Positions 16,541 through 40,842 of a stretch of 64,000 bases of DNA are shown here, piece by piece. A program made the translations under genes and the position numbers. How positions within the stretch are numbered: the first letter of the stretch is position 1; the number at the start of each line of letters is the position of its first letter. The notes below the pieces were generated by a model. It was not told the origin of the DNA, ran no database searches, and saw only the letters and a list, made by a program, of their open reading frames with translations. This DNA is from a sulfur-oxidizing endosymbiont of Gigantopelta aegis (lineage in GTDB: Bacteria; Pseudomonadota; Gammaproteobacteria; GRL18): contig NZ_JAEHGE010000003.1 of assembly GCF_016097415.1 (NCBI RefSeq), positions 14,491 to 78,490 of the forward strand. Direction: 5' to 3'.

Positions 16541-18361
16541 TTATTTCAGTTGTGACATCAATGATTTTAGTTGTGTTTCAAGATTCACTACAAAGCGTGG
16601 TGTATCAAATAGCACACCATCAACTTTGATCGCTTCAACCTGCTGCCTTAAACGACGGTAGTTGTCACTATCTTGTGCCAATTTAACCGCCATCTCTTCA
16701 TAGTCATGCAAGTTGTATGCAATTAATTCCGGTAGTTTTGCCGCAGTCAATAATGCTCCTGCCATGCGTGATGCAAAAGATTTTCCTGTGAGTGTCAGTA
16801 TTGGCAAACCCATCCATAAGACATCATTGGCTGTAGTCCCGGCATTAAAAGGAAATGTATCCAAAAACAAATCAGCCGTTGCAAAACGCGCCAGATAATC
16901 TTCCGGAGATACTCTTGGGGCAAAAATTAAGCGTTGTTCATCAATCCCATGTGATTTAAAAGCATTTTTTTAATTCATTTCTGACCAGGGATTATCTGCT
17001 AATAGCCAAAGTACGCTATTGGGCACTCTGCGCAAAATATTCATCCAGATGGCAAAAACCTCTGGTGTATATTTGTAATTATTATTGAATGAACAAAAAA
17101 CAAAGCTATCTTCCGGTAGGCCACATTGGGCACGGCTAGGAATAATGCCATTTTTTCTTTGACTATCGCAAACCTGATACACATCAGGCATGTAAATCAT
17201 TTTTTCTGAATAATATTTTCTATATTCTTCAGGAATTAAAAATTTATCGGCAATGACATAGTCGATGGAAGGTAGGCCAGTTGTTGCCGGCAAGCCCAAA
17301 TAGGTGATTTGAATGGGGGCAGGATGATAGGCCAGCATATTAGTGCGAGCCCCCAGGGTTTGTCCGTGCAAATCAACAAGAATGTCAATTTCACGTTCTC
17401 GAATTAAGCGTGCAGCGGCTTCATCACTAAGGTGCAAAATACTCTCAAAATGATCCATACCCTTAATGACACGTTGTCGAAGAGGTGAATCACCCTGATT
17501 AGTCCAGCAAAAACCATAAACTTCAAAGTTATCTCGATCATGCAATTCAAATAATTCGACCGTTAACATCGCCACTGGATGCAGACAAAAATCCGATGAA
17601 CAGTAGCCGATACGAATTTTTTTGTGCCCATACCCAGTTTGTTGGGCTAATTGAGGTACATCATTATTAATTTTTTTCTTAACATAATTACGTGCGGCAG
17701 CTAGTTGTGTTTCCGGATCATCTGAAAGGCTGATCATAGCCAGTGCTGATGTTGATTGCTTTAATAATTCGACACTCACGTCAGCAAATGCTTCATACAC
17801 AGGCCAGACGCAATGCTTGGCACGTAAAAAAACTAAATGGTGCAGGACATCGGGCTGATTAGGTTCTATTGTCAGACTTTTGGTCATATAACCTAAGGCT
17901 GTATGATAGCGCTTATCAGAGGTTTCTAATAAGCGTCCCAGATTGTTCAGTGCCAGTAAAAGCACCTCACGCTTATCAGCTTGATTCGGTAGGATATTAT
18001 CATCAAGCCAGCGCCATTCAATAATCGCTTCATCTATCATTCCAAGACGTTCGTAGGTCATGCCAAGATTAAAACGTGGTTGAACAAAATTATGATCGAG
18101 TTTAATGGCTTCGGTATAAGCGTCTTTAGCACCTTGCAGGTCGCCTACCTTGAAAAGAGCTGCCCCTAAATTAAACCAGGCAACGTGATTGTATACTGAG
18201 TCATTTCGTTTTAGCCAAGTCTGATATAACACAATAGAGAGTGTTAACTCGCCTTGTGCTTCTAAGTCTGCAGCATAAGAGAGTAGATGGGTATGATCGA
18301 GCGTTCCCTGCCATGCATTTTTTATTGCTAAGGTAAAATCACTTTCAATTGTCAATATCAA
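16541..18361 (-). pseudogene. TPR/GT41 (OGT/SPINDLY-like) protein glycosyltransferase with in-frame stop
   Basis: One frame of 607 codons interrupted by a TAA at codon 464 (16970-16972). The N-terminal third holds tetratricopeptide repeats (WFNLGAALFKVGDLQGAKDA, PRFNLGMTYERLGMIDEAI). The GT41 catalytic region begins at KIRIGYCSSDFCLHPVAMLT and continues with DILVDLHGQTLGARTNMLAY, PIQITYLGLPATTGLPSIDY and VFCSFNNNYKYTPEVF. After the stop the same frame continues RLIFAPRVSPEDYLARFATA and FPFNAGTTANDVLWMGLPIL, so no frameshift is involved; TTA to TAA would explain it. GT41 enzymes transfer sugar to Ser/Thr (or Asn) of cytoplasmic proteins. It lies 172 bases after the giant Ser/Thr-rich repeat gene. 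Truncation removes part of the UDP-sugar site. Confidence 0.82.
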
Positions 18362-18533: not shown

Positions 18534-21500
18534 TTATACCGTACGTACTTCAAATCCAGCAGTTTGATCCGTTGTCATTGCATCGATTTGAGCATAAGTA
18601 ATGGCATATTCTTGATCACTGGTCAGTGACTGAATTTGGTCAGACGTCAACGCTTGAACCTGAGTAGTCGTTATAGACTGAATCTGGCTATCGCTCATAT
18701 TGGTAAATTGTGTGGTACCAAGACCTGATTGGATTTGATCAGAGGTCAGTGAAGCCACTTGCGTATAAGTCATGGCAGAAATTTGACCTGCGGTCATTGC
18801 TTGCATATCAACCGTTTCAATGGCCTGTACCTGTGTGGCACTTAATTCACGTAAGTCCTGCGTTTCCATTGCCTGAATTTGGTCAGTCGTCATTGCCGCC
18901 ACATTATCACTGCTCAGATATTGCATCTGTGCCGTGGTTAAAGCAACAATGTCTTCCGTACCAAAAGCCTGAATCTGATCAGTTGTCAATGAGCCTAATT
19001 GTGAACCGGTCAAGCTCGCGGTTTGATCCGTAGTCAGAGCAGCAATATTATCTGTCGATAAAGCAGAGAAATCACCCAGTTCAATGGCCTGAATTTGCGC
19101 CGTTGTTAGCGTACTGATTTGATCTGTGGTCATGGCATTGAACTGGTCACTGGTCAAAGCCTGTATCTGTGCATTGGTCAATGCAGTAGTCTGAGCTGAA
19201 CTCAGAGAAGTCACTGCATCAGTACTCAGATTACTGATCTGAGTTGAGTTTAAGACTTGTATGTCATTGGTCTCAATTGCCTGCAGTTGATCCGTGCTCA
19301 GTGCATTTAAATTGTCCGTTGTCAAAGCGCCAATTTGAGCTGTCGTCATGGCTTCAATTTCATCAGTGGCGAAGGTTTGAATTTGATCCGTAGTCAGAGC
19401 TTGTATCTGAGAGCTGGTCAAACTGACAACCTGAGAGACGCTCAATGCTGTCACACTATCGGTTGATAGCGCAGCAACGTTGTCAGTTGAAATTGATTGT
19501 AATTGAGTTCCCGTTAATTCAGAAACATTATCAGTCGTCAATGCATTGAGCTGATCACTGGATAATGAGGCCACCTGTGCATTGGTCAACGCAACCGTCT
19601 GATCCGATGTCAATGCATTAATACCATCCGTACTAATAGCACTTGTCTGCGTGGTACTCAACACTTGCAGATCTTCTGTTTCAATGGCCTGAATTTGATC
19701 ACTGGTTAAAGCATTGAGATTATCACTACTCAGACCCGACATTTGTCCGGTTGTCAGAGATGCAATTTCATCGGTAGCAAAGGTCTGAATTTGATCAGAT
19801 GTTAAAGCACCTAATTGTGCATTGGTTAAGCTAGGTATTTGATCCGATGTCAGCGCAGTAATACTATCCGTCGTTAAAGCGGCCAAATCTGCTGTTTCAA
19901 TCGCCTGAATTTGTCCAGAAGTCAGCTCCGCAACATTATCTGTTGTTAGAGCATTCAGTTGATCACTAGAAAGTGAGGTTATCTGCGCATTCGTTAAGGC
20001 CACAGTTTGATCGGAGGTTAAGGCATTGATACCATCGGTACTCAGCGCACTGGTTTGATCGGTATTGAGTGCTTGTAAGTCATCGGTTTCGATGGCCTGC
20101 ACCTGATCGCTAGTCAAAGCATTCAAATTATCGGTTGTTATACCGGACATTTGCGCAGTGGTCAGGGCGGCGATTTCATCCGTTGCAAAGGTTTGAATTT
20201 GATCCGTTGTTAAAGCACCCAATTGTGAATTCGTCAACGTACTAATTTGATCTGAAGTTAAGGCTGTGGTGTTATCGGTCGATAAGGCAGCCAAGTCAGC
20301 TATTTCAATTGCTTGCACCTGATCAGTGGTGAGTTGTGACACATTATCTGTGGTCAATGCATTCAGTTGATCACTGGATAGTGAAGCAATCTGCGCTCCA
20401 CTCAATGATACGGTTTGGTCTGAACTCAGAGCAGCAATGCCATCAGTATTTAAGGCCGCTATTTGATCCGTATTGAAGGCTTGCAAATCAACGACTTCAA
20501 TCGCCTGTACCTGATCGGTGGTTAAGGCATTAATATTATCCGTACTCATGGCCGGTATTTGATTGGTACTTAAGGCCACAATATCATCCGTGGCAAACGT
20601 CTGAATCTGGTCGGAAGTCAACGCACCAACCTGATCAGTCGTCAAGCTTGCCGTTTGATCAGATGTCAGTGCCGCCGTATTATCAGTCGATAAGGCTGTA
20701 ATATCAGCCACTTCAATAGCCTGAATTTGATCGGATGTGAGTGCTGCAATATTGTCCGTGGTCATGGCATTAAATTGATCACTGGACAAGGTTGCAATCT
20801 GAGATGCATTTAGTGCAACACTTTGATCCGAGGTCAGTGCTGAAATACTATCTGTATTTAATGAAATAACCTGATCACTATTCAGAGTTTGTAAATCTTC
20901 TGTTTCAATCGATCTAAACTGGTCGGTTGTTAAGGCATTCAAATTATCGGTCGTCATTGCCGTCATTTGATCAGTTGTTAAGGCTGCTATTTCATCTGTC
21001 GCAAAAGTTTGTATTTGATCAGTCGTTAGCCCCCCTATTTGCGAATTAGTCAAACTCGCGGTTTGATCCGAGGTCAATGCAGTCGTGTTATCCGTCGATA
21101 GTGCCGATAAATCTGCCACTTCTATCGCCTGAATCTGATCAGAACTTAAAGAAGCTATATTATCAGTCGTCATGGCATTGAATTGATCACTGCTTAATGC
21201 CGTAATCTGAGTTCCGGTTAGTGCACTACTTTGATCGGAGGTCAGTGCTGCAATGCTATCGGTATTTATTGAAATGATCTGGTCACTATTGAGCGCTTGT
21301 AAATCATTGGTTTCAATCGAACTAAACTGATCCGTTGTTAAGGCATTCAGATTATCCGTTGTCATTGCCGTCATTTGATCAGACGTCATGGCTACAATTT
21401 CATCTGTCGCAAAGGTTTGTATCTGATCCGTTGTCAAAACACCAATCTGTGAGTTAGTTAAGCTTGAAATTTGATCTGACGTTAAGGCTGTCGTGTTATC

Positions 21501-24500
21501 CGTTGACAAAGCAGCCAGATCGGCATCTTCAATTGCTTGAATTTGATCAGATGATAATACCGATAAATTATCAGTCGTCATGGCATTCAGTTGATCACTG
21601 GATAAGGATGTAATCTGTGCCCCAGTAAAGGCAGTAGCCTGATCCGAAGACAATACATTGATATTATCCGTTGTTATTGCCCCAACTTGATCGGTATTTA
21701 AAGCCGCAAGATCAGCCGTTTCAATCGCCTGGATTTGATCACTGATTAAATTAGCGACATTATCAGTGGTAATGCCCGGCATTTGATCTGTCGTCAAGGC
21801 AGCAATTTCATCAGTAGCAAAGGTTAACATCTGATCAGAGCTCAACGCACTCAATTGCTCAGTCGTCAAACTGGATATTTGATCGGAGGTTAAAGCCGTT
21901 GTGTTATCCGTTGTTAAAGCAGCTAAATCTGCAGTATCAATGGCTTGAATTTGTCCTGAGGTTAGCACCGCTAAATTATCCGTACTAATCACGTTGATTT
22001 GATCGCTGGATAACGATGTGATTTGTGGCGCTGTCAAAGCAATTGTTTGATCAGACGATAAACTATTAATATGAGTTCGAGTAAAGGAAGAAATTTGATC
22101 GGTACTCATCGAACTAATTTCATCGGTACCAAAAGCCGCAATTTGATTAGTAAACAAGCCCTGAATACTATCCGTTGACATCACTCCTACCTGCTCTACT
22201 GATAAGGCAGCAATTTCATCTGTTGATAGAGCACGGATCTGATCCGATGTTAATACCTGGAATTGTGTTGTAGTCAGACTCGCAATTTGATCTGAGCCCA
22301 TTGCTTCTATTTTAATATCCGAGAGGCTTGCCAAGTCTGACACTTCAATCGCTTGTATTTGAGCACTGGTGAGGACACCCATGTTATCTGTCGATAAACT
22401 ATTGAGCTGATCACTGGATAGAGCAGCAACTTGTTTCGTCGTCAGTGCCTGAACCTGGTCAGAGCTTAATTCACCAATATTATCCGGGGTGATAGCTGCA
22501 ATTTGGGTAGTATCAAGAGTACGGAGATCATCTGTTTCCAATGCCTGAATCTGACCTACAGCCAAGGCAGTTAATTGAGCGCCCGTCATCGCTTCCACTT
22601 GTGATGACGTGAGTGCTGCAATATTATCGGTAGTAATCGCTCTAATCTGATCAGTATCCAAACTAGCCACTTGTGTAGAACTTAGACCCTGAACCTGATC
22701 CGATGTTAATGCTTCAATATTTTTGGTGGTCAAAGCACCCAGTTGATCAGAGTTAAGTACACGCAGATCTTTTGTTTCAATGGCAACAACTTGATCAGTA
22801 GTCAATGCTGCAATATTATCAGTCGTCATAGAGCGCATTTGTATCAAACTCAGGGCAACAATATCACTGCTAGAAAATGCTCTAACCTGATTAGTCGTCA
22901 TTGCCGTGAGTTGATCACCGGTTAAATTAGCGGTTTGATCCGAGGTCAGGGCAGCAATATTATCGGTGGTTATATTTGACATAACACTGCTATTAATGCG
23001 CTGTATTTGCTCACCCGACAATAAGGCCATATTATCGGTTGTTAAAGCATTTATTTGACTGCTGGACATCGTGCTAAATTGAATAGCGGCAAAAGCCTGA
23101 ACAGAATCCGATGTTAAAGCGCCCACTTGAGCAGTAGTCAAAGCATTTAGTTGCTCACTGGTTAGCGCAAAAGCTTGCTCGTCGGTCAGTGCAGCAATAC
23201 TATCTGTTGACAGCGATGCAATACTATCGGTAGGAATCGTTCTATATTGATCCCCTGTAAAGGCAACTAAATTATCGGTTGTTAAGGCATTAAATTGATC
23301 GGTTGATAATGCCTGAATTTGCAGAACACTCATGCCGCGAGTTTGGTCGGAAGATAGAACGGAAATACTACCCGTGCTTAATGCGCCAATCTGATCGGTA
23401 CTCAATACACGTAAATCATTGGTCTCCATTGCAATCATTTGATCGCTAGATAATGCCGCAATATTATCAGTAGATACAGCCTGAATCTGATCAGTTGTTA
23501 ACGCAATAACATTACCCGTCGTTAAAGAAAGAGTTTGATCAGATGTTAGTGAACTTATTTGATCGGTCGTTAAGCTAATAGTTTGATCAGTTGTTAAGGC
23601 TGAAATTTGATCAGTCGATAGATTTGCGAACTTAGTCGTCTCTATCGCTTGTATTCTTATATCTGTTATCAGAGAAAAATTATCAGTCGTCAGGGCATTT
23701 AACTGATCAGTTGTTAATGTAACAAATTGAGTACTCGTAAGAGACTGACTTTGATCAGACGTTAGTGAAGCAATACTATTTGTGCTTAATGCTGTAGTTT
23801 GATCAGAAGTCAAAGCTCGCAGATCCTGAGTTTCCATTGCAATAATTTGATCACTTGTCAGAGCTGCTATACTATCTGTTGATAAAAGAGATACTTGTCC
23901 CGTTTTCAAAGCAACAATATCAGCGGTTGAAAAGACTTGAATTTGATCTGAATTCAAAGCTGATATCTGATCACCTTTAAGAGAAACAACTTGATCGGAT
24001 GTCAAAGCTGCAATTTGGTCCGTTGATAAGTTTGATAAATTACTCGCCTCAATAAATCTAATTTGACCTGTTGTCAATGCCACGACGCTATCTGTTGCCA
24101 ATGCATTTAATTGATCGCTTGACATTTGTTGGACTTGTGCACCAGTTAATTTTGAAGCTTGGTCCGTAGTCATTACAGCCACATTATCAGTACTTAATGC
24201 AGCAAATTGATCAGAATTCATCGCACGTAAGTCATTAACTTCCACTGCAATCATCTGATCAGTTGTCAGTGCTGCAATACTATCTGTTGATAAAACCGAC
24301 ATTTGCCCCGTTTTTAGCGCAACGATATCAGCAGTTGAAAAAGATTGAATTTGATCGGATGTTAGAGCTGCAACTTGATCTCCTTTTAGTGCTGCTGTTT
24401 GAGTCGATGTGAGTGCGGCAATTTGATCAGTCGACAAGCCTATTAGATTCGAAGTTTCAATAAACCGAACTTGACCGGTTGTTAAGGCGGCAATATTATC

Positions 24501-26813
24501 CGTAGTAAAAATATTAAGTTGATCACTGGATATTTGCTGCATTTGCAAACCCGTTAAAGCAGAAGCCTGATCGGTTGTCATCACACCAATACTTTCAGAG
24601 CTTAATGCAGCAATTTGATCTGAATTCAGCGCACGTAAATCATCAACTTCCATTGCAAGCATTTGATCAGTGGTTAGTGCTGCAATACTATCTGTGGATA
24701 AGACTGCCATTTGACCTGTTTTTAGTGCAACGATATCAGCAGTTGAAAAAGCTTGAACTTGCTCGGATGTTAGAGCAGCAACCTGGTCTCCTTTTAGTGA
24801 AGCTGTTTGTGTTGATGTTAATGCAGCAATTTGATCAGTCAGTAAACCCGATAAATTAGAGGCCTCTACTAATCTTATTTGCCCTGTCGTTAAAGCGGCA
24901 ATATTATCTGTAGTAAAAGTATTGAGTTGATCACTGGACATTTGCTGAATTTGTGTACCCGTTAATTGGGAAGCTTGATCCGTGGTCATCACACCAATAT
25001 TATCTGCACTTAATGCTGCAAACTGATCAGAAGTCAGCGAACGTAAATCATCAACTTCCATTGCAATCATTTGATCGGTTGTCAGCGCAGCAATACTATC
25101 TGTCGATAAGACTGCCATTTGCCCTGTTTTTAGTGCAACAATATCGGCGGTTGAAAAGGCTTGAATTTGATCGGATGTTAAAGCCGCAACTTGGTCTCCT
25201 TTTAGTGCAGCTGTTTGAGTCGATGTGAGTGCAGCAATTTGATCTGTCAATAAGCCCGATAAATTTGATGTTTCTATTAATCTGATTTGTCCTGTCGTTA
25301 AAGCCGCAATATTATCTGTAGTAAAAGTATTAAGTTGATCACTGGACATTTGTTGGATTTGTGCGCCCGTTAATTGGGAAGCTTGATCCGTGGTCATCAC
25401 ACCAATATTATCTGCACTTAATGCTGCAATTTGATCCGAACTCATCGCACGCAAATCTTCAACTTCCATTGCAATCATTTGATCAGTTGTCAGCGCAGCG
25501 ATATTATCCGTGGACATCACCGTAATCTGCCCTGTTTTCAAAGCAACAATATCATTGGTTGAAAAAGCTTGGAATTGCTCAGAATTTAAGGAGGCTATTT
25601 GAGAACCAGTCAAAGCTGCAACTTGAGTCGATGTAAGAGCGGCTATTTGCTGAGTTGATAAATTAGCAATGTCATCAGTTTCAATAAGTCTCACTTGGCC
25701 TGTTGATAGCACCGCAATATTATCTGTAGACAAAGCATTAAATTGCTCACTGGACAGTTGTTGCATTTGTGCGCCAGTCAATGCTTTTGCTTGATCTGTC
25801 GTCATTGCATTTATATTAACAGTAGTTAATGCAGTAACCTGTGCTCCTGTCATTGCACGTAAATCTTCAGTTTCCATTGCTTTAAACTGATCAGTTGTTA
25901 ACGCAGCAATGCTATCTGTTGACATCAGTGCCATCTGTCCAGATTTTAATGCCACAATATCATTGGTTGAAAATGCTTGTATTTGTTCAGAAGTTAAAGC
26001 TGATATTTGATCACCTTTAAGACTACTCACTTGTTCAGATGTCAAAGCAGCAATTTGCTTAGTCGACAAACTGGTAATATCATCCGTTTCAATAAATCTT
26101 ACTTGGCCCGTTGTAAGAGCAGCCATATTATCTGTTGACAATGCATTTAATTGAGCACTTGTCAATTGCTGCATCTGAGCACCCGTAAGCGATCTCGCTT
26201 GAGAGCTTGTCATGGCGCTTATGTTTTCAAGACTTATGGATGCGGTCTGCTCAGAAGTTAACGCACGTAAGTCTTCTGATTCCATAGCAACCATTTGACT
26301 AGTCGTTAATGCGGCAATGCTATCCGTTGATAATAAGCGGACTTGTCCTGTCTTTAGAGCAACAATATCATCAGTTGCAAAAGCCTGTACCTGATTACTT
26401 GTTAATGCTCCAATTTGAGACCCCGTTAAATTAGCAGTCTGTATTGAGGTAAAAGCAGCAACCTGGAATGCTGAAAATGCAACTAAATCATTGGTTTCAA
26501 TTGAGCGAACTTGGTTTGTTCGTAATACCGAAATACTCGCAGTAGATAAAGCATTTAATTGGTCACTCGATAGAGCTGTTATCTGGCCATTTGTCAAAGC
26601 TCTTAATTGGTCGGATTGTAATGAAGCTATATTATAGGTTGAAACCGCCTCAAGCTGAGTAGAGCTTAGTACGACAAGGTCTCTCGTTTCAATAACACGA
26701 AATTGTGTAGCACTAAGTGCATCAATTTGATCGGTTGACATACCTGCAAAATCTGTAGTCGTCAGCGCCACAATCTGTGCAGTCGTCAGTGCACTAATAT
26801 CAGCTGGTGTCAA
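18534..26813 (-). repeat. Nested DNA repeat: 24-bp octad units in a 408-bp higher-order period
   Basis: At DNA level the octads give a 24-bp period and the 17-octad unit a 408-bp period. For example the + strand text ACTGCCATTTG occurs at 24703 and again at 25111, exactly 408 apart. Copies between about 24.2 and 25.6 kb are the most similar to each other; copies near both ends are more diverged while keeping the protein pattern, so the array is old with some recent homogenisation in that stretch. Confidence 0.85.
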
Positions 26814-26828
26814 ACTATCGATAGCCAT
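18534..26828 (-). CDS. Giant octapeptide-repeat protein (2,764 residues)
   Basis: I do not recognise a named family. After a five-residue start the whole protein is built of about 344 consecutive 8-residue units with consensus L-[TS]-[TS]-x-Q-[IVL]-x-A, for example LTSDQIQA. Units fall into a higher-order repeat of 17 octads (136 residues) marked by I-E-x-x-D-L octads at positions 5 and 14 and F-[AS]-T-x-[DE]-I at position 10; about 20 such super-units fit. Ser/Thr make up at least a quarter; I found no Trp or Cys and little basic residue content. No signal peptide, membrane helix, sorting motif or separate C-terminal domain is visible (ends AGFEVRTV). Start ATG 26828 has a GGAG ribosome site 7-8 bases upstream. 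The frame is unbroken over 8.3 kb despite decay around it, implying selection. Surface fibre or adhesin is a guess. Confidence 0.85.
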   Translation of the reverse strand: MAIDSLTPADISALTTAQIVALTTTDFAGMSTDQIDALSATQFRVIETRDLVVLSSTQLEAVSTYNIASLQSDQLRALTNGQITALSSDQLNALSTASISVLRTNQVRSIETNDLVAFSAFQVAAFTSIQTANLTGSQIGALTSNQVQAFATDDIVALKTGQVRLLSTDSIAALTTSQMVAMESEDLRALTSEQTASISLENISAMTSSQARSLTGAQMQQLTSAQLNALSTDNMAALTTGQVRFIETDDITSLSTKQIAALTSEQVSSLKGDQISALTSEQIQAFSTNDIVALKSGQMALMSTDSIAALTTDQFKAMETEDLRAMTGAQVTALTTVNINAMTTDQAKALTGAQMQQLSSEQFNALSTDNIAVLSTGQVRLIETDDIANLSTQQIAALTSTQVAALTGSQIASLNSEQFQAFSTNDIVALKTGQITVMSTDNIAALTTDQMIAMEVEDLRAMSSDQIAALSADNIGVMTTDQASQLTGAQIQQMSSDQLNTFTTDNIAALTTGQIRLIETSNLSGLLTDQIAALTSTQTAALKGDQVAALTSDQIQAFSTADIVALKTGQMAVLSTDSIAALTTDQMIAMEVDDLRSLTSDQFAALSADNIGVMTTDQASQLTGTQIQQMSSDQLNTFTTDNIAALTTGQIRLVEASNLSGLLTDQIAALTSTQTASLKGDQVAALTSEQVQAFSTADIVALKTGQMAVLSTDSIAALTTDQMLAMEVDDLRALNSDQIAALSSESIGVMTTDQASALTGLQMQQISSDQLNIFTTDNIAALTTGQVRFIETSNLIGLSTDQIAALTSTQTAALKGDQVAALTSDQIQSFSTADIVALKTGQMSVLSTDSIAALTTDQMIAVEVNDLRAMNSDQFAALSTDNVAVMTTDQASKLTGAQVQQMSSDQLNALATDSVVALTTGQIRFIEASNLSNLSTDQIAALTSDQVVSLKGDQISALNSDQIQVFSTADIVALKTGQVSLLSTDSIAALTSDQIIAMETQDLRALTSDQTTALSTNSIASLTSDQSQSLTSTQFVTLTTDQLNALTTDNFSLITDIRIQAIETTKFANLSTDQISALTTDQTISLTTDQISSLTSDQTLSLTTGNVIALTTDQIQAVSTDNIAALSSDQMIAMETNDLRVLSTDQIGALSTGSISVLSSDQTRGMSVLQIQALSTDQFNALTTDNLVAFTGDQYRTIPTDSIASLSTDSIAALTDEQAFALTSEQLNALTTAQVGALTSDSVQAFAAIQFSTMSSSQINALTTDNMALLSGEQIQRINSSVMSNITTDNIAALTSDQTANLTGDQLTAMTTNQVRAFSSSDIVALSLIQMRSMTTDNIAALTTDQVVAIETKDLRVLNSDQLGALTTKNIEALTSDQVQGLSSTQVASLDTDQIRAITTDNIAALTSSQVEAMTGAQLTALAVGQIQALETDDLRTLDTTQIAAITPDNIGELSSDQVQALTTKQVAALSSDQLNSLSTDNMGVLTSAQIQAIEVSDLASLSDIKIEAMGSDQIASLTTTQFQVLTSDQIRALSTDEIAALSVEQVGVMSTDSIQGLFTNQIAAFGTDEISSMSTDQISSFTRTHINSLSSDQTIALTAPQITSLSSDQINVISTDNLAVLTSGQIQAIDTADLAALTTDNTTALTSDQISSLTTEQLSALSSDQMLTFATDEIAALTTDQMPGITTDNVANLISDQIQAIETADLAALNTDQVGAITTDNINVLSSDQATAFTGAQITSLSSDQLNAMTTDNLSVLSSDQIQAIEDADLAALSTDNTTALTSDQISSLTNSQIGVLTTDQIQTFATDEIVAMTSDQMTAMTTDNLNALTTDQFSSIETNDLQALNSDQIISINTDSIAALTSDQSSALTGTQITALSSDQFNAMTTDNIASLSSDQIQAIEVADLSALSTDNTTALTSDQTASLTNSQIGGLTTDQIQTFATDEIAALTTDQMTAMTTDNLNALTTDQFRSIETEDLQTLNSDQVISLNTDSISALTSDQSVALNASQIATLSSDQFNAMTTDNIAALTSDQIQAIEVADITALSTDNTAALTSDQTASLTTDQVGALTSDQIQTFATDDIVALSTNQIPAMSTDNINALTTDQVQAIEVVDLQAFNTDQIAALNTDGIAALSSDQTVSLSGAQIASLSSDQLNALTTDNVSQLTTDQVQAIEIADLAALSTDNTTALTSDQISTLTNSQLGALTTDQIQTFATDEIAALTTAQMSGITTDNLNALTSDQVQAIETDDLQALNTDQTSALSTDGINALTSDQTVALTNAQITSLSSDQLNALTTDNVAELTSGQIQAIETADLAALTTDSITALTSDQIPSLTNAQLGALTSDQIQTFATDEIASLTTGQMSGLSSDNLNALTSDQIQAIETEDLQVLSTTQTSAISTDGINALTSDQTVALTNAQVASLSSDQLNALTTDNVSELTGTQLQSISTDNVAALSTDSVTALSVSQVVSLTSSQIQALTTDQIQTFATDEIEAMTTAQIGALTTDNLNALSTDQLQAIETNDIQVLNSTQISNLSTDAVTSLSSAQTTALTNAQIQALTSDQFNAMTTDQISTLTTAQIQAIELGDFSALSTDNIAALTTDQTASLTGSQLGSLTTDQIQAFGTEDIVALTTAQMQYLSSDNVAAMTTDQIQAMETQDLRELSATQVQAIETVDMQAMTAGQISAMTYTQVASLTSDQIQSGLGTTQFTNMSDSQIQSITTTQVQALTSDQIQSLTSDQEYAITYAQIDAMTTDQTAGFEVRTV

Positions 26829-27018
26829 TCTTAATCTCCAAACTTTTTTCTTTTACAATTTTTAGTAACATTTATCAGTCATGATTGCATGAAAAATATA
26901 ACATTAATGCCACACAAGACGATATAAAGAAGAAATTTTATTAATATAAAATTCATATAAAACAAATAGATATAAGCATAAATTACAGACGTCTTAATAA
27001 TAGCGTACATTAAAAGCA

Positions 27019-27034: not shown

Positions 27035-27250
27035 ACTTTAAGAAAATTTACATCTAAATTTAGTCTAAATAGGAAACAAATTACTGTTTTTTCATTTAGC
27101 AGATATGCTGGATTAAAATCCTACATTTACCGCTTCAATTTATATAGCGGTTCGATTAGCACTTTCTTTAGAAATTATTACAAATTCCTCAATTATCATC
27201 TGACAACACACATTGAAATCACCAATTTCTTTTAAATGCTCAACTCTGAC

Positions 27251-27327
27251 AACATTCAACATTCAACATTCAACATTCAACATTCAACATTCAACATTCA
27301 ACATTCAACATTCAACATTCAACATTC
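27251..27327. repeat. Heptanucleotide tandem repeat (AACATTC) x11
   Basis: Eleven perfect copies of AACATTC, 77 bases, between the remnant of gmd and the leader of the giant gene. A unit length not divisible by three and perfect copies are typical of slippage-prone tracts. It is not inside a convincing gene; it lies about 215 bases upstream of the sigma-54-like motif for the giant gene. Confidence 0.92.
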
Positions 27328-27344
27328 ATATAAATTATTACACC

Positions 27345-27813
27345 TTAAATTGATATTTTATGTTCATTACATTCAGCTTCAATCATCATCTTTACTATAT
27401 CAGGCATTGAATATAACGCTTTCCAACCGAGAATTCTCTCTGCTTTAGATGGGTTCGCAACTGAGATATCAATATCAGATGGACGGTAAAAATCACTCTG
27501 AGTTATTACATGCTCTTCACATTTTAAATTTAAACTTTTAAAAACTTCGGCAACAAATTCATGCAAAGCATAAGTTTTTCCCGTTGCAACAACAAAATCT
27601 TCAGCTTTTTCCTGTTGTAGCATCAGCCACATAGCAGCTACATACTCTGGGGCCCATCCCCAGTCCCTTTTTATCGCCGTATTACCTAAGATTAATTTCT
27701 CATTACTACCCCGAACAATTCGACAAGCTGTATTGATAATTTTTCGGGTAACAAAACGTTCAGGTCTTAATGGTGACTCATGATTAAACAACAAACCTGA
27801 ACACGCATAAATA
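27345..27813 (-). pseudogene. gmd: GDP-mannose 4,6-dehydratase, C-terminal half (split by IS66)
   Basis: From IYACSGLLFNHESPLRPERF onward this is the C-terminal half of Gmd: VTRKIINTACRI, RDWGWAPEYVAAMW and FYRPSDIDISVANPSKAERI are all family segments. The first two or three residues of the open frame come from the IS66 end at 27814. The other half lies at 30207-30667. About 17 residues of the normal protein between the halves (after SPYAVA, including the helix following the catalytic Lys) are absent, so insertion was accompanied by loss of roughly 50 bases. The stop at 27345 is followed by the heptamer repeat. Confidence 0.85.
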
Positions 27814-27843
27814 GTATACGTCAAAACTTCCCACGTTGACGTA

Positions 27844-29373
27844 TCATTCCACTTTATTTAAAGGCTGAATTTTTTCAGTCAAATTCCATGGCAACAATTG
27901 CTCTAAAGCCTCATCATCATAATGCCTGCCCAGCTTAGGTAACTCAGTCAGAATGTGTGTTAAAAAGGCAAAGGGCTCTAGGTTGTTTGCTTTCGCTGTT
28001 TGCACGATTGAATATAAAATAGCACTGGCCTCAGCACCACGAGGATTTTGGTTCATGACCCAGTTTTTGCGCCCAATCACAAAGGGTTTGATCCGCCGCT
28101 CTGCCATATTATTATCAATCTGGAGGTTGCCCTCTTCAAGATAGACAGTCAGATACTTCCATTGATTGATCACATAACGAATAGCGACACCCAACTTACT
28201 GTCTTTTGTTGTTTTAGTCACTTTATCATCACACCACTTTTTAAAGTCATCCAGTAGTGGTTTGCTTTTTTCCTGACGGATCAGGTAACGTTGTTCAGCA
28301 TTGAGCGGTTTGATTTGTTTTTCAATCGCATACAATTTAGCAATTTTACTGATCGCCATTTGTACCATGCCAGGCTTTTTCTGACTGTTCTTGGGTAATG
28401 CTTTTAAGGCATCATGGAACTTGCGACGAGCATGTGCCATGCAGCCTAATAAAGTGACTTCACTGTTCTCATTTTCGAATATATGATAACCGGGAAAGCC
28501 ATCCGTTTGCAGGTAACCTGAAAACCCCGTTAAAAAGGTTTTGGCATGTTGGCCTGCACGAGTAGGCTGATACTCATACAAAACAATGGGACACTTGGAA
28601 TGATAGCCGCCACTTTGATAGAGCCACATATAAGATTTAGGGCAATTCTCACGTCCATCATGGATCACTCGCATCGTTGTTTCATCGGCCTGGATGATTT
28701 TCTGCCTAATGAGATAATACAACAACCGATTATAAAAGGGTTTGAGTAATTCAGCTGATTTAAGCACCCAGTTGGACATACTGGCTCTGGAAAGTGTTAT
28801 CTTATAGCGTTTAAATATCGCTTCCTGTCGATAGAGAGGCAAGCTGTCTAGGAATTTAGAAACAATGATATAGGCCAGCAGGCTGGGTGATGCAAAACTT
28901 CTAGGAATGGGCTGTGCAGGCTTAGGAGCAGTTTTAACGCCTTCCTCACAAGCACGACAGGCATATTTAACCTGAACATGTTCTACAACATATACCTGAG
29001 CAGGAACAATTTCCAGTTGCTCTGAGGTCTCTTCACCAATTTCATGCAAGTGATGACCGCAGTCACAGACTTGTTCTGCTTCAGATAACTCATGACGAAC
29101 AACTTTACGAGGTAGGTCTTTAGGTAAAGGCTTACGACCGGGCTTTTTACGCTCATAAGTAATGGTTTCACGGACTTCCGGTGCTTCTTCGGCGAACGTT
29201 TCTGCCTCATTAAAGAAGTCGGGGTGGGCTTCTTTTTCACTGGAAGTACCAAACCGTTTGTGTTGCAACAGACGAAATTGTTCCTCATACCAGTCCACTT
29301 TTGACTGGAGTTCAAGCACCCTGTTTTTGAGCGTTGGTATCTCTTCTGGTAGTATTTTGTCTGTTGAACTCAT
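27844..29373 (-). CDS. tnpC: IS66 transposase TnpC
   Basis: 509 residues, uninterrupted. It starts with a coiled-coil stretch (LPEEIPTLKNRVLELQSKVD), then KRFGTSSEK, a Cys-rich zinc segment (CDCGHHLHE, YACRACEEG), the DDE core from FLDSLPLYRQEAIFKRYKI with IQADETTMRVIH, GYLQTDGFPGYH and MAHARRKFHDAL, and ends with NMAERRIKPFVIGRKNW. It is the only full-length transposase gene of either IS66 copy. Confidence 0.92.
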   Translation of the reverse strand: MSSTDKILPEEIPTLKNRVLELQSKVDWYEEQFRLLQHKRFGTSSEKEAHPDFFNEAETFAEEAPEVRETITYERKKPGRKPLPKDLPRKVVRHELSEAEQVCDCGHHLHEIGEETSEQLEIVPAQVYVVEHVQVKYACRACEEGVKTAPKPAQPIPRSFASPSLLAYIIVSKFLDSLPLYRQEAIFKRYKITLSRASMSNWVLKSAELLKPFYNRLLYYLIRQKIIQADETTMRVIHDGRENCPKSYMWLYQSGGYHSKCPIVLYEYQPTRAGQHAKTFLTGFSGYLQTDGFPGYHIFENENSEVTLLGCMAHARRKFHDALKALPKNSQKKPGMVQMAISKIAKLYAIEKQIKPLNAEQRYLIRQEKSKPLLDDFKKWCDDKVTKTTKDSKLGVAIRYVINQWKYLTVYLEEGNLQIDNNMAERRIKPFVIGRKNWVMNQNPRGAEASAILYSIVQTAKANNLEPFAFLTHILTELPKLGRHYDDEALEQLLPWNLTEKIQPLNKVE

Positions 29374-30135: not shown

Positions 30136-30206
30136 ATTACGAATTGAAGATCATAGTTTGAGCTAACTGAAGCTTATTGTGAACGTGGGTTTTAATTGAC
30201 GTTTAC

Positions 30207-30667
30207 GCAACAGCATAGGGACTTCTGGGTTGAAAAAGTGTTGTTTCTGATGCAGCTTCCCCTTCTGTATTGCCAAAACATTCACTGGAGCTCGCATTGT
30301 AAAGTCGCATGGGCAATTTTAAAAAACGCATTGCTTCAAGCAAGTTTAGTACTGCAATACTGATACTATCAAATGTTTCAACGGGTTGTTCAAAAGAAAG
30401 GCCTACAGAACTTTGTCCAGCCAAGTTATAAATTTCATCAGGTTTAATATCACTCAAAACCTGCAACACACTACGAAATTCATTCAGAGACATTGATTTA
30501 AGTTGAATTAAATCCTTAATTCCTAAGTTGTTCAGGTTAAAAAAAGAAGATGTGGATGCATCTCTTGAAGTACCGATAACACTATAATCTTTATCTAAAA
30601 GATACTTAGCCAGATAAGCTCCATCTTGACCTGACACACCAATAATTAAAGCTTTTTTTCTATTCAT
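30207..30667 (-). pseudogene. gmd: GDP-mannose 4,6-dehydratase, N-terminal half (split by IS66)
   Basis: The frame begins MNRKKALIIGVSGQDGAYLA, the NADP-binding start of Gmd, and reaches YNASSSECFGNTEGEAASET and QPRSPYAVA with the catalytic Tyr before ending at the TAA contributed by the IS66 terminus at 30203-30205. Intact Gmd converts GDP-mannose to GDP-4-keto-6-deoxymannose for fucose- or rhamnose-type sugars. The 230 bases upstream (30668-30898) show nothing I can name. Confidence 0.87.
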
Positions 30668-39281: not shown

Positions 39282-40842
39282 ATGCAAAACAAGGCTGAAT
39301 CCACAAAAACGACTCTATATTTTCCGCTTTTTCACACGCGGACAAGAATGAATTGTTGAGTGTCATTGAACAGAAAAACCACCGTATAAAAATACTGGAA
39401 GAAGCCCTTCGTCTGGCTCGTAGTAAACGCTTTGCACCCAGCAGTGAAAAAAGTGATGGTCAGGAACGCTTATTTGATGAAGCTGAGCAGGCGGCTGACG
39501 ATGAGGGGCTCCCTGAACCTAAAACCACTTCGCCTAAGAAGAAAGAAAAACAGGCAGGAAGCCTTTCTCAAAGACTATTCCAAGAGTCCCTGTCTTCATC
39601 GATCTGACAGATGAAGAAAAAGCCGGTGCCATTGAGGTTTTTTACACTAAAGTCAGAGAAGAGCTGGATATCATTCCAGCTAAAGTCCAAATACTGGAAT
39701 ACTTCCAGGAAAAAGCCGTCTTTGCAGGCACCAATGACACAGACAGTCGTTCAATGAAAGCTGCGGTCATGCCAAAACATCCATTACCTAAATCAATGGG
39801 CAGTATTCACCTGATGGCACACATCATTATCTCAAAATATGCCGATGGTTTGCCTCTGTATCGAATGGAAGGCATATTATCACGCTATGGCGGCGATATA
39901 ACCCGAGCCACCATGGCCAATTGGGCTATTAAACTGGCTCATCAGTTCCAGCCGCTCATCAACCTCATGCGAGAACATCAACTGTCGGGTGACATCATCC
40001 AAATGGATGAAACGGTGCTCAAAGTATTAAAAGAGCCGGGACTCAGTGCTCATTCGAACAAATACATGTGGGTCAGTCGTGGCGGGCCACCTGGACAACC
40101 CAGTGTGCTGTTTGAATACGATCCTTCTCGTAAGAAGGAAGTACCACTGCGCCTGCTTGATGGCTTTAGCGGCTATCTGCAAACCGATGGCTATGCCGGT
40201 TACAATGCCGTGTGTGCACAAAATAATGCCACATCGGTCGGCTGCTGGGATCACACTCGCCGTAAATTCAAAGATTCTCAGACGGCACAACCAAAGAAAA
40301 AGAGCAATCAAAAGCCTACAAAAGCCGATGTGGCACTGGCCCATATCAATAAGCTGTATTTAATTGAGCGTGAGATAAAAGAAGCCAGTGTTAATGAAAA
40401 ATTTAAGGTTCGTCAGAAACAGAGCCTGCCGCTTCTTGAGAAAATAAGAACATGGGTCGATAACACCCTGGGCAAAGTGCCGAACGACAGCTTGACAGGA
40501 AAAGCACTCACCTATATTAATAATCAATGGCCTAAGCTGACTGTTTATTGTGAAGATGGTCGGTTGAATATCAGTAATGTGCTGGCAGAAAATGCTATCC
40601 GTCCATTCTGCGTGGGTAGAAAGGCCTGGTTATTTTCAGATACGCCAAAGGGTGCACATGCCAGTGCAGTTCATTATAGTTTTATTGAAACCGCTAAGGC
40701 CAATGATATTGAGCCATATACGTATATGGTCTATGTATTAACCCAATTACCTTATGCGGATACGGTTGAAAAGCTGGAAGCATTGCTTCCCTGGAATTTT
40801 AAAAAATCAGAATTGGAAAAGGTAAAGAACGCTGTTCGTTAA
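39282..40842 (+). pseudogene. tnpC: IS66 transposase TnpC, frameshifted
   Basis: The ATG at 39282 starts MQNKAESTK; an A is apparently missing from the A5 at 39305-39309, after which the frame reads NDSIFSAFSHADKNELLSVI and RLARSKRFAPSSEKSDGQ. A second slip at about 39551-39560 separates this from RKPFSKTIPRVPVFIDLTDE and the long DDE half (39754-40842: IIQMDETVLKVLK, GYLQTDGYAGYN, WDHTRRKFKD, NVLAENAIRPFCVGRKAW). No full-length transposase can be made without frameshifting. Confidence 0.82.

Follow-up and report, generated by a model that had tools for sequence, protein, structure and literature searches.

Why should a protein that is built almost entirely from octapeptides repeat once more, at a second level, every 17 octads, and what may such a protein be used for? 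These questions are raised by a gene at positions 18534-26828 of a 64,000-nucleotide stretch (the window, to which coordinates refer unless another locus is named) from a sulfur-oxidizing gammaproteobacterial endosymbiont of Gigantopelta aegis (NCBI RefSeq assembly GCF_016097415.1, contig NZ_JAEHGE010000003.1). An original prediction from the sequence alone had described its product as a giant protein of 344 octads in a strict 17-octad super-repeat, without a named family. The analysis presented here argues that the period very likely corresponds to five whole turns of a superhelix, a geometry deduced from the order of the octads. As a whole, the locus is best explained, with fair confidence, as encoding a giant exported O-glycoprotein rod, an alpha-solenoid of the ALTTAQ type, whose system appears partly impaired in this strain.

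The octad array and its family

The gene is an open reading frame (ORF) without internal stop on the minus strand, a point that the prediction had left out. It begins with an ATG codon, and a likely ribosome-binding site (GGAG, 26836-26839, minus strand), read from the sequence, is placed 7 bases 5' of it. The translation comprises 2,764 amino acids, as predicted. Residues 6-2701 form 337 consecutive octads in a single register, and behind a one-residue shift after residue 2701 seven further octads are readable, which gives exactly the total of 344. The C-terminal end (residues 2702-2764 and the stop codon, 18534-18725, minus strand) terminates in FEVRTV; translation, octad grid and comparison with relatives agree that a separate C-terminal domain is absent. 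Positions 1 and 6 are hydrophobic-type in 332 of the first 336 octads, but the exact motif L-[TS]-[TS]-x-Q-[IVL]-x-A, said to fit almost every residue, is matched by only 46 of them. The protein contains 318 Asp and Glu, 56 Lys and Arg and 759 Ser and Thr residues, and no cysteine.

The second level of repetition is seen in the self-identity of the protein, which amounts to 60.5% at an offset of 136 residues, 55.5% at 272, 51.4% at 408 and 46.6% at 544. For offsets below 600 the mean is 33.0% at multiples of the octad (multiples of 136 included) compared with 6.6% at all others, and the predicted 136-residue period is present. The slot pattern also recurs in the fixed order described, with two I-E octads 8 and 9 octads apart and an F octad four octads before one of them, and a 408-bp tandem array was detected by Tandem Repeats Finder (TRF). 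A profile of the clearest units places unit starts at residues 6, 142, 278 and so on to 1094, every 136 residues, then at 1174 and 1310, and finally at 1390 and from there at 136-residue steps up to 2478. The register therefore jumps twice, from 1094 to 1174 and from 1310 to 1390, each time by +80 residues or exactly 10 octads, and the windowed identity at offset 136 drops to 30% over residues 1089-1360. The 17-octad period is genuine and extensive, yet it is not strict throughout, since its register shifts twice in mid-protein. According to the unit scan the array can be divided into a block A of six 17-octad units (residues 142-957; 23958-26405, minus strand), a middle region which contains both jumps and the drop in identity (residues 958-1661; 21846-23957, minus strand), and a block B of again six units (residues 1662-2477; 19398-21845, minus strand).

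The protein belongs to a named repeat family after all, since Pfam PF20080 ("ALTTAQ repeat") matches it with 1703.1 bits over 81 stretches at a cut-off of 26.4 bits. In the own genome all 87 of the 87 listed matches with an expectation value (E) <=0.001 fall inside the giant gene. The PF20080 model is a window of 38 residues, and the 17-octad level is beyond its reach. The search for a well-characterised family yielded a name, but among the papers listed from the openly licensed PubMed Central (PMC) literature neither a function of ALTTAQ or PF20080 nor a paper about it was found. Other candidates were rejected: the Pfam families CAAP1, HTH_25, Nucleoporin2 and AH_C overlap the octads without any stretch passing alone, two of them being below cut-off, and the likeness to leucine-rich repeats (best PDB 5a5c, profile E 9e-11) was judged compositional, its single-sequence E being 0.21.

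The family is rare: repeat carriers were found in three of 57 genomes of relatives (E<=1e-8) and, at E<=1e-11, in four of 369 genomes drawn from the class and five of 398 from the phylum, the own genome included. Among 72,556 plasmid records 59 carry the repeat (E<=1e-10), mostly from Rhizobium (17), Shinella (13) and Cereibacter (11). Plasmid members are labelled 'heme utilization protein', 'ICE nucleation protein' or 'large exoprotein involved in heme utilization or adhesion'; nothing in this analysis supports heme use or ice nucleation. The ALTTAQ frames of one family (f215; L078, L079, L080, L110, L111, L114 and L115 from five genomes) reach about 5,700 residues, and weak repeat matches exist also outside the Proteobacteria, in Spiroplasma (CP117533.1, 27% identity) and Staphylococcus pasteuri (NZ_CP017464.1, 22%).

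The genus of the endosymbiont contains two orthologues. That of genome G008 has likewise 2,764 amino acids and aligns without gaps to the window protein (genome G000) at 74.7% identity, and that of G004, with 2,221 amino acids, is shorter by 544 = 4 x 136 residues if a one-residue difference before the first octad is allowed. Between G000 and G008 the nonsynonymous divergence (dN) is 0.17 with saturated synonymous sites (proportion of synonymous differences, pS, 0.74), so that the protein sequence has been conserved. The selection claimed for the gene is borne out to this extent, but its frame, intact over 8.3 kb, is not by itself proof of selection at present.

Superhelical turns and the 17-octad period

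It had been suggested that a whole fold, fibre turn or binding module spans the 136 residues. AlphaFold2 gave confident models for residues 414-821, which cover three units (predicted local distance difference test, pLDDT, 94.3; predicted template modelling score, pTM, 0.80), and for a 176-residue piece (pLDDT 94.6, pTM 0.85). The 51 octads of the former give 51 helices of 5-6 residues, and the 22 octads of the latter give 22 of 4-6 residues. The prediction is thus an uninterrupted solenoid to which each octad contributes a short helix, and the 136-residue unit would not be one globular fold; its structural meaning most likely lies in whole superhelical turns. The protein can be pictured as a giant acidic, cysteine-free 'helix of helices' in which each octad helix is probably N-capped by its own Thr/Ser pair.

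A solved protein, HeliScrew4 (PDB 9zem, 120 amino acids), aligns without gaps to the window protein with a single-sequence E of 3.3e-16 and a profile E of 7.3e-30. Its octads, mostly L-[ST]-P-[ED]-[QK]-[IVF]-A-A, are much like those of the giant protein but carry Pro-Glu where natural ALTTAQ octads have Thr/Ser-Asp; name and regularity suggest a designed or idealised screw of helices. In each of the four structure searches with the models 9zem stands outside the best 50 rows. Foldseek found no close match in the PDB: mesothelin chains were best, save for one designed protein in the case of the longer model, and template modelling (TM) scores were low. With a second aligner the receptor-binding protein of the C. 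difficile phage CDHS-1 (7qlr_C) came top with Z 8.8 and a root-mean-square deviation of 3.3 A over 175 of the 176 residues; mesothelin (Z 6.8) and armadillo (ARM) proteins (Z <=6.6) came next, the ARM values being within the helical-repeat background given for the tool. In a viral structure library the best 50 rows all have a TM-score <=0.33. ARM/HEAT proteins, mesothelin and the CDHS-1 protein are superhelical, helix-rich solenoids, as is predicted for the giant protein; Z values in the range obtained may, according to the tool, reflect a common arrangement only. The giant protein would differ from ARM solenoids, whose repeat comprises about 42 residues, in its helices of 4-6 residues and its turn of about 27.

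The length of the turn was derived from the order of octad types. Each octad was taken as one unit, and Fourier spectra of 18 ALTTAQ proteins or pieces (L054, with 26 octads, was left out) were compared with the maximum obtained when the order of the octads was shuffled 100 times. In the band of 3.23-3.57 octads the power exceeds this maximum in 16 of the 18, and in 15 of these 16 the band maximum lies at 3.36-3.41 octads; in eight of the 18 the 3.39-type peak is the highest of the whole spectrum. A second measure, the offset of the best self-match, was taken from 14 lineages or pieces, the 18 having been merged by hand for three orthologues, two near-identical Rhizobium proteins and two pieces of one Pseudomonas gene. 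This offset is 17, 10, 27, 34 or 7 octads in 11 of the 14, and a turn of 3.39-3.40 octads makes most of the 14 offsets near-whole turns; with the same optimisation, random offsets gave 9 of 14 at the 99th percentile and never more than 11 in 2,000 draws. The lineages are not fully independent, and the turn measures share the same proteins.

At 3.39 octads per turn, 7, 10, 17, 27 and 34 octads correspond to 2.06, 2.95, 5.01, 7.96 and 10.02 turns. The two 10-octad register jumps in the window protein and the size difference of 4 x 17 octads in G004 fit the same rule. The octads would thus wind at about 3.39 per superhelical turn, or 27 residues, and since 17 octads make five turns, duplications of this length would keep each octad type on the same face and produce the second-level period. 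The same would hold for duplications of 7, 10, 27 or 34 octads, and other lengths would disrupt the surface pattern. One level down, the 7-, 11- and 18-residue periods of the alpha-helix are the counterparts. The whole protein may comprise about 100 turns and, at a rise of about 1 nm per turn, measure roughly 0.1 micrometre. Five whole turns are, in all, a very probable explanation of the 17-octad period, and as a rule for a second-level period this was not found in the literature searched.

Several observations weigh against this explanation. In 10 of the 18 spectra another peak is higher, often at 2.43-2.44 octads, where twice the 3.39 frequency has its alias. In L078 and L080 the power fails to rise above the shuffles, and the in-band maximum of L052 lies at 3.23, barely over its null. 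When a cosine is fitted to the self-identity, the optimum lies at 3.36-3.41 in only eight of the 18 and at 2.41-2.45 in eight others. The ARM repeat spans 3.5-3.8 octads in the alignments (seven armadillo-like chains, hand-picked from 50), near the proposed turn but not equal to it. Finally, strictly 17-periodic proteins show several nearly equal harmonics of 17, and the proteins with another best offset (L053, L081, Shinella, Cereibacter and Rhizobium daejeonense) are therefore more telling. A sub-period of 8.5 octads, hinted at by the I-E slots, was set aside, as the peaks at 8.5-8.6 agree with what the 17/3.4 pattern would give as its third alias harmonic. As a separate observation, two octad types alternate in L078 and L079, with a spectral peak at 2.01 octads.

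The period might also be a mere footprint of recent unequal crossing-over of a 408-bp unit, structurally meaningless. The array found by TRF is what this would leave behind, and the units of block A are indeed more alike within the species than to the orthologous L033 units (72.3% compared with 65.5% DNA identity). In block B the reverse is the case (67.5% among the own units, 73.3% to the orthologous ones), so homogenisation has affected part of the array after the two species separated. However, 17 is the best offset not only in the window genus but also in Rhodovastum, Rhizobium CCGE531, Pseudomonas asturiensis and Rubrivivax (L009), the oscillation at 3.36-3.41 octads rises above the shuffles in L053, L081 and Shinella, where the best offset is a different one, and the steps of 7, 10, 17, 27 and 34 octads are those predicted by a turn of 3.39. 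Crossing-over as the whole cause is therefore improbable.

A neighbouring glycosyltransferase and export genes

The giant gene is followed after 172 bases, on its own strand and without a terminator-like site in the gap, by a gene for a protein with tetratricopeptide repeats (TPR) and a glycosyltransferase domain of family GT41. The part up to an in-frame TAA (16970-18361, minus strand) matches Pfam Glyco_transf_41 with 186.9 bits in addition to the TPRs, and the remainder of the frame behind the stop (16541-16870, minus strand) covers profile positions 448-542. The TAA, at codon 464 of 606, precedes the C-terminal part of the GT41 domain; an intact 607-amino-acid orthologue spans both pieces in one frame (tblastn), and G004 and G008 possess intact copies.

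The enzyme accompanies the repeat protein in several groups. In the genus it was found in three of 16 genomes, exactly the carriers of the repeat protein, some of the 13 others being incomplete. In family f160 some GT41 match (E<=1e-30) occurs in 16 of 198 genomes, but the only full-length ones (692-1393 bits, the next having 329) are in G742, G911 and G808, exactly the three repeat carriers in a draw of 198. On plasmids the best GT41 place lies <=5 kb from the best repeat place in at least 24 of the 59 records, from seven genera, whereas 0.06 records with both would be expected under independence. This is a lower bound, because 18 of 78 records with GT41 were outside the listing, the comparison used best places only, and Rhizobium rhizoryzae (8.3 kb) and Pseudoroseomonas (10.9 kb) exceed the 5-kb limit. 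The identity as TPR-GT41 was checked in Cereibacter, Rhodovastum and Pseudomonas asturiensis, and four relatives score 202-264 bits. The HMW1C/NGT model NF049992 gives 27-42 bits in three intact GT41 relatives, far from its cut-off of 1000. Another pair of related ORFs (about 29% identity over 277 residues) lies near the repeat gene in the genus (L032:421-1329) and in Rubrivivax (L009:15258-16913); by reading only, their start resembles a glycosyltransferase.

Genes of type I secretion are a further neighbour of some relatives; surroundings on plasmids were covered for 10 of the 59 records, two of them without annotation. ATP-binding cassette (ABC) transporter and HlyD genes adjoin the repeat gene in G253 and G138, and ABC, HlyD and TolC genes do so in G742, G911 and G808. 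In Cereibacter sphaeroides ATCC 17029 and Pseudoroseomonas the annotation shows ABC and HlyD genes next to the repeat gene, and in Pseudomonas asturiensis it shows TolC as well. Several type I-linked relatives end in a separate D/N/G-rich domain; the Cereibacter protein consists of octads to its end, like the window protein.

From these neighbourhoods, which had been proposed for recording and point to the TPR-GT41 gene beside many relatives, a role of the ALTTAQ family as exported glycoproteins is reasonably probable. In the relatives the adjacent TPR-GT41 would O-glycosylate Ser/Thr residues of the repeat protein in the cytoplasm, and the product would then be exported, in several lineages by type I secretion, and act as a surface or matrix glycoprotein, i.e. 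adhesin, spacer or coat. A more far-reaching reading combines a second-order, coiled-coil-like rule, in which one-octad helices take the role of residues and duplications are tolerated at rational approximants of the turn (7/2, 10/3, 17/5, 27/8 octads per turn), with faces that the TPR-GT41 would read in placing its O-glycans along the rod, and with a dedicated secretion system in some lineages; this is offered tentatively.

A number of points tell against the exported glycoprotein. Among the matches listed, 35 of the 59 plasmid records lack GT41 within 5 kb, including 12 of 13 from Shinella, and none was found beside the repeat gene in G138, G350, the five f215 genomes and L009, where contig ends are often close. 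The f215 flanks examined contain neither GT41 nor type I genes. The ABC transporters of f116 (G253 and G138) score 639 and 644 bits, under the HlyB cut-off of 726. Type I genes are absent from the window and from beside its two genus orthologues, and in incomplete gene tables none is annotated near Rhodovastum, three Rhizobium loci (two nearly alike) and one Shinella locus. In the own genome, which is 99.91% complete, the type I adaptor TIGR01843 has no match at E<=1e-20, although 12 of the 16 genus genomes have one, 11 of them over cut-off. No LssB-type transporter over cut-off was found there either; G004 (974 bits) and G008 (966 bits) possess one apart from the repeat gene. The C-terminal domain in which several type I-linked relatives end is furthermore missing from the window protein, and the window GT41 is interrupted by its premature stop.

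In the window genus and Rhodovastum the protein might instead belong to the flagellum, e.g. as a sheath, a filament coat or an export substrate; type I genes adjoin none of the G004, window and Rhodovastum loci. The pair of G004 lies beside a flagellin gene and, by reading, flaG-, fliD- and fliS-like ORFs, the window pair shares its region with amino-sugar genes and (also by reading) flgL/flgK-like ORFs, and the Rhodovastum pair is 2-9 kb from annotated flhB, fliR, flhA, fliQ, fliE and fliI/yscN. The GT41 would then act like FlmG of Caulobacter, a TPR-containing flagellin O-glycosyltransferase which binds flagellins through its TPR part and glycosylates them in the cytoplasm (PMC7591256). Both enzymes combine TPRs with a cytoplasmic glycosyltransferase, but the substrate of FlmG is flagellin, whereas the enzyme here follows the repeat protein: the 13 genomes of the genus that lack the repeat, of which some are incomplete, yielded no GT41. 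Elsewhere the pair accompanies type I secretion or metabolic genes, and a flagellar export signal was not identified. A flagellar role is thus unlikely.

Nor is it probable, to a similar degree, that the protein is an unexported cytoplasmic scaffold or spacer and that the GT41 modifies something else. The N-terminus shows by reading no apparent signal peptide, an adjacent type I system is missing in the genus, many relatives are without a nearby GT41 among the matches listed and one Shinella locus is without either partner, all of which would suit such a scaffold. Against it stand the type I genes beside relatives in several families, the strong Ser/Thr and acidic bias of a cysteine-free protein, and the strict co-occurrence with GT41 in two sampled groups. 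The exported glycoprotein is the preferred interpretation.

State of the locus and comparison with known systems

In this strain the system is probably impaired. The stop in GT41 and the missing type I adaptor make it look recently disabled with the giant ORF still open, and for these two reasons the glycoprotein would probably not be made or displayed normally in this genome; relaxed selection after a recent loss is possible. The GT41 stop codon may also be an error of the assembly. The decay claimed for the neighbouring genes was seen in two cases, namely GT41 and a GDP-mannose 4,6-dehydratase gene split into a C-terminal piece (27345-27824, by Pfam) and an N-terminal piece (30203-30667, by reading), with an IS66 transposase gene in between (27844-29373). 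In G008 an apparently whole copy of the dehydratase is situated near the giant gene (L033:6488-7450, by reading). A second IS66 transposase gene (39754-40842) lies inside the surface-sugar region, which has consequently taken at least two insertions.

In the window genus the pair sits in a region of flagellar and surface-sugar genes. Here positions 32229-61355 include genes for a DegT aminotransferase, a CTP_transf_3 transferase, a glycosyltransferase with an MptE-like part and glycerophosphotransferase-like proteins, together with flgL/flgK-like and other flagellar hook or rod ORFs, of which the N-termini only were read. Upstream of the giant gene an Rfam scan gave no match, and scans for promoters and terminators gave no more sites than shuffled sequence. 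About 420 bp upstream lies a perfect heptanucleotide tandem repeat of 11.3 copies (27250-27328, no strand assigned; TRF, 100% matches), which was not reported in the two orthologous loci of the genus. Its position is reminiscent of the repeats that vary the expression of high-molecular-weight (HMW) adhesins.

Neither the repeat family, which had a name already, nor the octad fold, of which a solved protein is apparently an example, is new. On the ALTTAQ-GT41 gene pairing no paper was found among the matches listed from the openly licensed PMC literature, and the module, with or without type I genes, was not found in the literature searched. The ALTTAQ family thereby gains a predicted fold, a quantitative two-level repeat rule and a candidate partner enzyme. 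It would furthermore offer protein engineering a useful natural analogue of a screw fold that was apparently designed. If the more far-reaching reading given above is true, these giant glycoproteins of bacteria, served by an enzyme of their own and in some lineages also by a type I secretion system of their own, would form a class not described before.

Among known systems the pair HMW1A/HMW1C, a large exoprotein or adhesin with a dedicated glycosyltransferase of the GT41 family, comes close; there, however, secretion is of the two-partner type, the sugars are N-linked and the enzyme has an AAD domain in place of TPRs (PMC3983070). The ALTTAQ system differs in its TPR-GT41, its octad alpha-solenoid and the type I genes beside some relatives. 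Giant adhesins secreted by type I systems (RTX, LapA-like) are likewise acidic, cysteine-free and thousands of residues long, but no RTX family is among the Pfam matches of the window protein at E<=0.01, and type I genes are not adjacent in its genus. Serine-rich repeat proteins, too, are very large and glycosylated in the cytoplasm before export. The ALTTAQ proteins would, if the interpretation is true, add a further architecture for very large proteins which receive their sugars in this way, beside the HMW1A/HMW1C pairs.

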